Assembly: GCF_037975215.1 (NCBI RefSeq)
Contig: NZ_CP150239.1
Coordinates: 3,076,001-3,140,000 of the forward strand
Source: Solibacillus sp. FSL R5-0449
GTDB taxonomy: Bacteria > Bacillota > Bacilli > Bacillales_A > Planococcaceae
Reading direction: 5' to 3'
DNA: 64,000 nucleotides
The first letter of the stretch is position 1, and every line of letters starts with the position of its first letter. Positions 36,163-39,311 of this stretch are shown one piece after another. Below the pieces are notes generated by a model. That model was not told the DNA's origin, searched no databases, and saw only the letters and a list, made by a program, of their open reading frames with translations. Both the position numbers and the translations under genes were made by a program.

Positions 36163-37848
36163 ATGTCAGTTCGCAAAAAACTTAATATAGGCTTCATTTT
36201 AATCGGAATAATTCTTCTACTTTCAATCGGATTTGCAACCGTTCAGTTTTTCCGTATTGGTGATGAAGTTTCTAAAGCCGTTGATGTACAAATGGCGCAG
36301 GTTACGCGTATTAATGATATCCAGCAGCACATATTGTCGCAGGGGATTTATGCACGTGCCTATGCAGTAGACCCTTCTCAAAATAACCTGGATTTACTAA
36401 ACAACCATACAACAAGCCTCGTTCAATTAATTGAGGAAGTACAAGAAGAAAATATTTTAGCAGAAGCTAAACCGATTATTACAAACTTAAAAGATCAGTC
36501 GGAAATAATTGCCGGGCAAATGGATAAGGTGATCTCCTCTGTACAGGCACGTGATATTTCGTCCGCTTTGTCTATGGTAAATGGCGATTATACATATACG
36601 AGTGTATTCACTAGTGAACTTGCGGAGAAAGTAGAACAGGTCGAAAACAAAGAGCTTGATAAAGTCGTAAACAATACGAAAGACATGATCTCACTTTCTA
36701 CGATTTTGTCTATTGTTTTCATTATTATTACGCTTATCGTCATCGGATTTTATATGGTCTATACGAAATACGGTATTACACAGCGTCTTCAATCCATTAC
36801 AAATGATCTGGAACAAATCGCAGACGGAAATATTAAAGTTGAACATAAACCGGTTCACACAAAAGATGAATTCGGGTTGCTGTCGAATGCTTTTATTTCA
36901 TTGCAGCGTAACTTTGAGGAGTTGTTGTTAAGTATTCAGCAAAATGCGAATCAGCTTAGCAATTCGGCGGATGCACTTATGAGAAACAGTGGGTCGATTT
37001 CTTCGGAAACGGCTCATATTAAAGAACTGATCGAGCATACTGCACAAACAGCCTCAACGATGACCATTGGAGCAAATGAAAGTGCACTTGCTGTAGATGA
37101 AACAGCTCAGGGAATTAACTCGATCGCACGTGCAACACAGGACCTGCATAGCGGTGCTGTCACATTAACGCAGTTTGCCAATGATGGTGTGAAAATTATT
37201 GATGAAGCGATGCAGCAAATGGAAACAGTGCATACATCGACTCAATCAATATCCAACCTATCAAATGTGTTAATCGAACAGTCGGGGCAGATCAGTACAA
37301 TAACGAAAGCTATTACCGATATCGCAGATCAGACAAATCTGCTCGCCTTGAATGCTGCCATTGAAGCGGCTAGAGCTGGTGAACACGGGAAAGGCTTTGC
37401 TGTAGTCGCAGATGAAGTTCGCAAACTTGCAGAGCAGTCGAAAAAATCGGCAAACGAAATTGTGCATTTAACCGAAACGATTCAGCACAATTCCCAAAAT
37501 GTTGGCGAAGCGGTGGAAAACAGTCTCAAGTGTGCAACGGATGGCGTTGTTGTCATCGATCGTGCCGGTCAATCATTCCATACGATTACCGACAATATTT
37601 ACAGTATAACGGAGCGTGTAGAACATATTTCTGCTACATCACAGCAAATTTCAGCAAGCTCTGAAGAAGTTGCCGCTTCTGTCATCGAAATTTCGCAAGG
37701 TACTGAAAAAACGATGACCGATGTTGAGCAAGTAGCCAATGCGACTCAACTTCAAACTGAAATTGTTGTTGAAATGGAAGAGCTGTCTAAACGTTTAGCC
37801 GATCAGGCAAAACAGCTCCAACAAAGTATGGAGAAATTTACATTATAA
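36163..37848 (+). CDS. Methyl-accepting chemotaxis protein with four-helix-bundle sensor
   Basis: A 561-residue chemoreceptor. TM1 is ~8-30, a ~150-residue helical extracellular domain follows (4HB_MCP type: [20 protein letters not shown]), TM2 ~178-198, then HAMP, then the signalling tip [29 protein letters not shown] precedes the ATG. Ligand unknown. It sits between rlmCD and dgkB, a pair that is adjacent in B. subtilis, so it looks inserted. Confidence 0.92.
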
Positions 37849-37867
37849 AATGAATTGCTTTTAATCA

Positions 37868-37910
37868 CCTTCACTTTAACGGTTTCTAATTGTTGAAGTG
37901 AGGGTTTTTT
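37868..37910 (+). terminator. Terminator of the chemoreceptor gene
   Basis: CCTTCACTTTAAC pairs with TTGTTGAAGTGAGG (small imperfection), followed by TTTTTT. Confidence 0.75.
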
Positions 37911-38190
37911 AGAAGTTTCTCGTTGGATATTAGAAGAAATTTTCGTTTATTAGAAAAGTTGAGCGGGAAATTAGAAAATAGGCTTTCTGCAGAGTGTTTA
38001 GTTTGCTCTTTTTATAGGGGTGGGCGGATATTAGAACAATGGGGAGCTTTATTAGAAGATGGTGAAAGGATATTAGAACATTTGGCCGGTTTATTTGAAC
38101 ATCTCGGCCCGATATTAGAAGATCCAGCAGATATATTAGAACTTAATTTATTTTATTAGAACATTTAAGCGATATATTAGAACAAACTCC
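37908..38190 (+). repeat. 21-bp phased ATTAGAA repeat array
   Basis: ATTAGAA or a one-base variant starts at 37908, 37929, 37949, 37970, 38030, 38051, 38072, 38093, 38114, 38135, 38155 and 38176. Spacings are 21,20,21,60,21,21,21,21,21,20,21, so the 60 gap equals three degenerate units (about 14 units in all). Between the heptamers lie ~14 variable bases, often CATTTGGCCG-like and ending GAT or TAT. The array is AT-heptamer phased at two DNA turns. It lies between two terminators and is probably non-coding. Confidence 0.85.
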
Positions 38191-38226
38191 GCCGCAAGCT
38201 CACCCGCTCCCGCTCCCCCATAAAAC

Positions 38227-38268: not shown

Positions 38269-39195
38269 TTAAATTACTTCTTCATCCGTTTCAATTTCAC
38301 GAATTCGATTGATTGGCACGAATACTTCAATATGTCGTTTTAAATTTTGGAAAATAGCTGGTGCATCGCCGCCGTACTCCCCGTCCAGGTTTAAATGAAC
38401 TTCCTGATCGGATGATACGACAACACGGCTTGCTTTTCGGTAAATAACACGCTCGTCGGATAAATGCTCACCACGTAATGCAAGTGAAGCAATACGAATG
38501 AAATCCGCAATATTGCATTCCTTTAAAATCATAACGGTAAACAGTCCGTCATTGATCGATGCATCCGGTGCAATTTTTTCAAAGCCGCCTACTGAGTTAG
38601 TTAAACCACATAAGAACATCATCGCTTTCCCGTCAAACTCTTCATCATCCATTTGAATTTTCATATGTGTCGCTTTAATGGAAGGAATCATTTCAATCGC
38701 CTTCAAGTAATACGCCATCTGTCCAAGTACCGTTTTCATTCTGCTTGGAACTTCATATGTCAGCTCAGTGATTCGCCCGCCTGCAGCAATGTTGATAAAG
38801 TAGCGGTTTTCATTTAAAATGCCGACATCTACAGGTATCGTATCCCCTGCAACAATAATGTTCAGTGCTTCCTCGACATTTCGGGGAATCCGAACAGCCC
38901 GTGCAAAGTCATTTGTCGTGCCCATTGGAATCAAACCAAGCTTCGGACGTTTTTCACATTGACTAATACCTGCTACTACCTCATTTAACGTACCATCTCC
39001 ACCTACTGCAATTACGACATCAAATTCACGACGAACAGCCTCGATTGCCGCTTTTGTCGCATCACCTTCACAAGTCGTTGCATGGCACGAAGTTTCGTAT
39101 CCGGCTATTTCCAGCTTCTCCAGTACTTCTGGAAGATGCCTCTTAAATGCCTCACGACCCGAAGTCGGGTTATATATAATTCTCGCTCTTTTCAT
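38269..39195 (-). CDS. dgkB: Diacylglycerol kinase
   Basis: A 308-residue soluble lipid kinase that phosphorylates diacylglycerol released during lipoteichoic acid synthesis, returning it to phospholipid synthesis. The start MKRARIIYNPTSGREAFKRH is nearly that of B. subtilis DgkB. The nucleotide loop GGDGTLNEVVAG and PMGTTNDFARA are intact, as is the C-terminal LDGE. I use the ATG at 39195; the frame extends 11 codons further without a ribosome site. Confidence 0.93.
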   Translation of the reverse strand: MKRARIIYNPTSGREAFKRHLPEVLEKLEIAGYETSCHATTCEGDATKAAIEAVRREFDVVIAVGGDGTLNEVVAGISQCEKRPKLGLIPMGTTNDFARAVRIPRNVEEALNIIVAGDTIPVDVGILNENRYFINIAAGGRITELTYEVPSRMKTVLGQMAYYLKAIEMIPSIKATHMKIQMDDEEFDGKAMMFLCGLTNSVGGFEKIAPDASINDGLFTVMILKECNIADFIRIASLALRGEHLSDERVIYRKASRVVVSSDQEVHLNLDGEYGGDAPAIFQNLKRHIEVFVPINRIREIETDEEVI

Positions 39196-39311
39196 TTTGA
39201 TCTCATCCTGATTAATTATATTTTTCATTCTGTCAAAAGTATACTGCTGTCTGATTTAGAAAAGCAACAATTGCACCTGGGATATTCTCTTCAATAATAC
39301 GTTTAAAATAG

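Follow-up and report, generated by a model that had tools for sequence, protein, structure and literature searches.

What does a series of short AT-rich heptamers, placed about two turns of the double helix apart between the 3' ends of two genes, do in a bacterial genome? The question is raised by positions 37908–38182 of the window, i.e. the whole stretch of 64,000 nucleotides from Solibacillus sp. FSL R5-0449 that was analysed, where twelve heptamers of the ATTAGAA type are found, ten of them exact and two with one mismatch (TTTAGAA at 37908 and ATTTGAA at 38093). They follow each other at steps of 21, 20, 21, 60, 21, 21, 21, 21, 21, 20 and 21 bp. The pattern ATTAGAA-N13/14-ATTAGAA occurs seven times in the window, always inside the array, whereas 100 dinucleotide-shuffled versions contain 0.01 on average; outside the array, single ATTAGAA heptamers number eight on the plus and ten on the minus strand of the 64 kb. 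The position list, the steps and the shuffles confirm the first-pass annotation of this DNA, which had described twelve such heptamers at 20–21 bp together with a gap of 60 bp.

Layout of the window array

Upstream of the array is an ORF (36163–37848) which, from its sequence, we take to be a methyl-accepting chemotaxis gene, and beyond the array follows a convergent ORF (38269–39228), presumably a diacylglycerol-kinase-like gene. As had been claimed from the outset, the array lies between two terminators, or at least terminator-like sites, and its parts are arranged as follows:

37867–37905, plus strand: terminator-like site of the upstream gene, with a T tract that continues into the first array unit
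37908–37976, plus strand: block 1, four units starting at 37908 (degenerate), 37929, 37949 and 37970, with steps of 21, 20 and 21 bp
37977–38029, plus strand: inter-block linker with a unit-to-unit distance of 60 bp, corresponding to about six turns of the helix
38030–38182, plus strand: block 2, eight units starting at 38030, 38051, 38072, 38093 (ATTTGAA), 38114, 38135, 38155 and 38176, with five steps of 21 bp followed by 20 and 21 bp
38183–38222, plus strand: C-rich 3' flank, as is also seen when 47 arrays of the genome are averaged
38266–38229, minus strand: terminator-like site of the convergent gene

The orthologous place carries the array in six of 16 Solibacillus genomes, the source genome (G000) included. 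Four of the five relatives sharing it have one more unit near the 3' end, so that a unit has apparently disappeared from the window copy; in the fifth relative, G006, the copy is truncated. In the relatives G014 and G010 the inter-block linker is 61 bp long, in the truncated copy 67 bp.

An ORF of 78 amino acids rich in ILE and LLE overlies the array (37923–38159), which would fit a coding leucine-rich heptad repeat with LLE or ILE every seven codons. This reading is hardly tenable, since steps of 19, 20, 71 and 82 bp break the frame, even the most favourable frame meets a stop in 9% of 200 exact 21-bp units, and the ORF has no Pfam match. The earlier statement that the array is not heptad coding therefore holds, and no sign was found of the array belonging to a conserved protein. 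The ORF is probably spurious, and ORFs like it may be annotated elsewhere as hypothetical proteins.

A dispersed family of phased octamers

The search for further arrays suggested by the first-pass annotation was productive. In the 3.58 Mb of the source genome the two-unit pattern occurs 176 times in the forward and 106 times in the reverse orientation, with no occurrence of the reversed pattern, and the three-unit pattern with 19/20 spacing and up to three mismatches is found in 53 places, compared with none in the control. At least 52 dispersed arrays were recognised in 45 loci, mostly without long ORFs, a lower bound that counts arrays with three or more exact units, delimited in stretches fetched from pattern matches.

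A frequent plan begins with four units at 21 bp, which a linker (most commonly of 81–82 bp) joins to six units at 21 bp followed by steps of 19, 20 and 20 bp, while shorter forms contain the second block alone. The number of exact units per array ranges from 3 to 25, the period from 19 to 21 bp, and the common forms span 170–320 bp. The claim that the heptamer alone is conserved was right as to the strong conservation of the core; the core itself proved to be the octamer TATTAGAA, with weaker preferences alongside. From 492 exact units the wider preference reads K-W-TATTAGAA-V-A-W, i.e. a strict core of 8 bp with weaker preferences extending to about 13 bp, the strict cores being separated by 11–13 bp. 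Of the 3' blocks that could be anchored (49), 24 have TATTTGAA as their fourth unit. Tandem copies of arrays are present at two loci (L012 and L020), and the densest cluster holds seven arrays in about 42 kb (G000:C1:2688915–2731017), next to ordinary neighbours such as a histidyl-tRNA-synthetase-like gene, chemotaxis receptors, a BCCT transporter, luxS and thiW. Eighteen neighbour proteins of the cluster, all from loci L047 and L048, were scanned with Pfam, and 17 of them match metabolic, transport, regulatory, chemotaxis and other families, one matching none.

Conservation was measured on 36 orthologous arrays shared with G005, a related species in which the array flanks have diverged by 13%; three of the 39 pairs found were dropped, two with a partner locus shared with another element and one low-scoring. 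Each species in turn supplied the exact heptamers, and the aligned positions of its counterpart were scored against them. The heptamer positions differ by 0–3.5% each (mean 1.5% and 1.3% by direction) and the preceding T by about 2%. The spacer positions differ by 9–31%, with a mean of 19–20% at +8 to +12 and 25–31% farther from the core. The heptamer is thus about 13- to 20-fold better conserved than the spacers, which supports protein binding, as suggested in the first-pass annotation, as the probable meaning. These rates do not cover the roughly 9% of unit positions in G000 for which G005 offers no aligned base. For the 22 pairs shared with G007 the divergence is 3.9% in the octamer and 33% in the spacer at +10 to +14, and 13% of the octamer positions are unaligned. 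The unaligned positions in both species indicate that units or blocks also get lost. Judged from these sequence comparisons, core, position and phase appear to be under selection, while the letters in between drift.

Three phased octamers are present in 13 of 261 genomes of the family, namely in 11 of 16 Solibacillus genomes and in two of 25 genomes of the genus of Ureibacillus manganicus; the order-level search covered the same 261 genomes. Since the arrays are missing from five Solibacillus genomes, their function appears to be dispensable. Phased arrays of any core at 20–21 bp were not found in 400 kb of the array-less Solibacillus genomes G008, G009, G012 and G015, in which about five would be expected from the density of the source genome and the yield of the detector, which recovers 45 of the 52 arrays already known. 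Plasmid and phage records yielded no similar DNA. Thirteen stretches of viral contigs hold an exact three-unit match, and the matches listed in the scan of named genomes comprise, besides true arrays, repeats that are coding, unrelated or due to chance.

The patchy occurrence in 13 of 261 genomes, together with the dispersed copies, the tandem duplications and an array-free orthologous site described below, agrees with a selfish or neutral MITE-like repeat, the regularity of which would merely be inherited from a tandem-repeat ancestor. Neutral copies would, however, diverge evenly, in contrast to the values of 1.3–1.5% for the heptamer and at least 19% for the spacer, and the plasmid and phage records likewise speak against such a repeat, which we regard as rather unlikely.

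Phased arrays with other cores were also seen. In Ureibacillus manganicus (L133:1209–1354) a second type with a TTTGCG core shows several steps of about 21 bp, some of 18–19 bp by eye, and adjoins a terminator-looking hairpin. In Mesobacillus selenatarsenatis (L148:3187–3313) a TTGGCG core occurs seven times, spaced by about 21 bp, with an adjoining hairpin, possibly an array of the same kind with another core. In G019, a member of the same family, phased arrays of AGTGAC, TTGCAA and CTTTAG lie within 3 kb (L064:1–151, 1416–1601 and 2599–2688). Arrays at about 20–21 bp were furthermore seen in an Odoribacteraceae MAG (L093:4497–4921), in Geomonas oryzae (L123:2511–2705) and in a Desulfobacterales MAG (L168:4991–5199).

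Spacing in whole helix turns

Between G000 and G005, 344 of 354 steps are identical, and the ten changes comprise eight of ±1 bp and two that add one unit, so that the spacing has not been lost in relatives. Eight of 20 linkers are altered, by changes from 81 to 60, 81 to 70 and 71 to 61 bp and, in five cases, by 1 bp. Compared with G007, 204 of 214 steps are identical; six differ by ±1 bp, one adds a unit and three are irregular (21 to 19, 20 to 16 and 21 to 16 bp). Of the 13 linkers in this comparison six are unchanged, four differ by 1 bp, one is longer by 10 bp (81 to 91) and two are irregular (50 to 45 and 50 to 21 bp); the irregular steps and linkers are possibly misaligned.

A total of 84 linkers was collected from four sets of Solibacillus loci, thirteen of 38–43 bp being set aside. 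All except two (67 and 69 bp) measure 50, 60–61, 70–72, 81–83, 91 or 121–122 bp. Their best period is 10.25 bp with a phase near zero and a Rayleigh R of 0.914, a value calculated on linkers that are not independent, as orthologues are counted repeatedly and paralogues inherit their geometry; the 14 distinct lengths alone give an R of 0.735. In a looser scan that also counted single one-mismatch units, 131 gaps gave a best R of 0.57 at 10.75 bp. It is clear from the clustering at the period of about 10.25 bp that the linkers differ by helix turns. The 60-base gap of the window, which had been explained as three decayed units, is accordingly better described as a linker, since 73 of the 84 linkers measure 60–61, 71–72 or 81–82 bp. 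The claim that the motif is phased on one face of the helix is borne out, with spacing changes mostly of ±1 bp or one unit and 82 of 84 linkers in whole turns; at 10.5 bp per turn the phase is imperfect, as the units at the 3' end drift (steps of 19, 20 and 20 bp).

The arrays in the genus of U. manganicus have the same octamer, steps of 19–21 bp and blocks of four units, and follow another plan, again in whole helix turns: 17 of 18 linkers measure 40 bp and the remaining one 82 bp, as counted in 33 loci of which several come from the same arrays.

An AT-rich core lying in phase could also mean intrinsically curved DNA, the alternative meaning offered by the first-pass annotation. A wedge-model prediction, with assumed parameters, lends this no support, giving an end-to-end to contour ratio of 0.948 for the arrays, 0.931 for random genome sequence and 0.934 for phase-scrambled copies, i.e. 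the arrays are predicted to be straighter. They are more curved than their own scrambled copies in 10 of 45 cases, and curvature from phased AT-rich octamers would not require an exact octamer; this explanation is very improbable.

Genomic setting, proposed role and known systems

According to a simple and rather crude ORF caller, both neighbouring genes run in the direction of the array in 23 of the 52 arrays of the source genome and both in the opposite direction in nine, while 18 arrays lie between convergent and two between divergent genes. A gene 3' end is thus present on at least one side in 50 of the 52 arrays. Terminator-like hairpins adjoin 44 of 52 arrays and 11 of an equal number of random positions, which lie mostly inside genes and so provide a weak control; the same scan overlooked the upstream terminator-like site of the window itself, which is detected by another scan. 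In G004 the site orthologous to one that carries an array in G000 and five relatives is array-free; a terminator there gives way to the leader of the following gene, and this comparison places the array between the terminator and that gene. With origin and terminus placed by GC skew, 28 arrays are oriented with the leading strand and 24 against it, and a strand-guiding, KOPS-like role is therefore unsupported.

The average flanks of 47 arrays of the source genome are G-rich on the 5' side (skew +0.65) and C-rich on the 3' side (−0.47), directly adjoining the array. They hold this composition between species despite a divergence of 30–33%. Pairing between the 5' and 3' flanks is only marginal, with −17.9 for own pairs and −16.9 for cross pairs (permutation p 0.047).

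The upstream gene is on the strand of the array in 41 of the 52 cases, which would suit an RNA element, i.e. a read-through transcript in which an RNA-binding protein or a nuclease would recognise the repeated UAUUAGAA. Such an element is improbable in view of the nine arrays opposite to both neighbour genes, of the whole-turn linkers, which have no evident meaning in single-stranded RNA, and of the fold z-scores of 16 arrays, with means of +0.24 for one strand and −0.45 for the other. Nor is there a credible Rfam match; the one obtained at an E-value of up to 1 is RsaJ (E 0.76, 14.3 bits compared with a cut-off of 100), and it sits upstream of the window array.

Genomes G001, G002 and G013 contain few arrays, and the eight that were fetched are simple, with 3–7 units at 21 bp. 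Three of these eight lie between divergent ORFs, two of them at one orthologous place. The simple arrays at L354:2519–2630 (G001) and L358:2479–2548 (G013) occupy an orthologous divergent region, unlike the usual site behind genes. The gene downstream of the divergent-region arrays in G001 and G013 is presumably ArsR-like (arsR).

The divergent setting of three of the eight simple arrays and the four LytTR matches in the source genome would be in line with a LytTR-type regulator as the binding protein, and the pitch is similar, LytTR sites being described as repeats of 9–11 nt separated by 11–13 nt (PMC4847170). Four to six LytTR matches are, however, found in all 16 Solibacillus genomes, whether arrays are present or absent, and just two of the 52 arrays of the source genome lie between divergent genes, which makes a regulator of this type as improbable as the RNA element. 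RemA was likewise considered as the binder and is unsupported, with no PF04025 match in the source genome and with matches of the controls in B. subtilis and two others.

The helix quantisation of the spacing points to double-stranded DNA as the target, and the conservation of the octamer to sequence-specific recognition. The array is probably a double-stranded DNA platform for a putative oligomerising, sequence-specific protein on one helix face, and the simplest agent would be an oligomeric protein touching every second turn on that face. Each TATTAGAA would be contacted by a single subunit or DNA-binding domain, the two-turn pitch and the whole-turn linkers would bring the sites to one side of the helix, and the putative protein may assemble along the 170–320 bp as a cooperative filament or ring. 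Copies of the array would have spread in the ancestor of part of Solibacillus, mostly landing behind gene terminators, and may have been maintained by selection since then.

The arrays' usual location, after terminators and in both orientations, is suggestive of barriers that separate transcription units. Nucleoprotein complexes formed at the ends of genes could shield each unit from read-through out of its neighbour, whichever side this comes from, and/or structure the nucleoid. That 50 of 52 arrays of the source genome adjoin a gene 3' end favours an insulating or nucleoid-structuring role; the insulating role taken alone is possible and yet doubtful, being rated slightly lower because three of the eight simple arrays lie between divergent ORFs, and nucleoid organisation is equally possible. 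More speculatively still, the arrays may be considered as bacterial chromatin insulators, i.e. more than 50 helix-quantised platforms, mostly behind genes, with a candidate TATTAGAA-specific architectural protein; lineages with other cores, such as TTTGCG in Ureibacillus manganicus, TTGGCG in Mesobacillus and others farther away, would then have the same system with other specificities. The arrays present a protein–DNA geometry written in sequence and offer a handle for finding a new DNA-organising protein, along with more than 50 natural loci at which it can be asked whether bacteria separate genes or organise the nucleoid by nucleoprotein blocks.

Plasmid iterons are direct repeats of about 20 bp, i.e. 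two helix turns, and resemble the arrays in pitch, whereas the arrays are chromosomal and dispersed. No Rep protein was detected among the 18 Pfam-scanned proteins of loci L047 and L048, and no replicon context was seen at the array loci looked at. The titles and abstract openings searched, which come from the open-access literature, yielded no description of such arrays. REP/BIME elements are, like the arrays, dispersed, intergenic and multicopy; their unit is palindromic and forms hairpins, whereas TATTAGAA is not a palindrome, the fold z-scores of 16 arrays are near 0, and it is a direct repeat of 8 bp that is conserved, at a pitch of two turns. LytTR operators have two repeats (PMC4847170), in contrast to the 3–25 exact units of the arrays, which lie mostly behind genes in the source genome. 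RemA is described as a ring protein that binds periodic AT-rich sites and is thought to wrap DNA; it protects stretches of 7 bp with 3 bp in between, a repeat of about one turn, and these poorly conserved sites lie upstream of promoters (PMC8481266), whereas the array period is 19–21 bp. For H-NS, it is reported that the spatial arrangement of identical sites directs the assembly of higher-order nucleoprotein structures (PMC5418058); those structures were made on circular DNA test molecules, whereas the arrays constitute a dispersed natural family.
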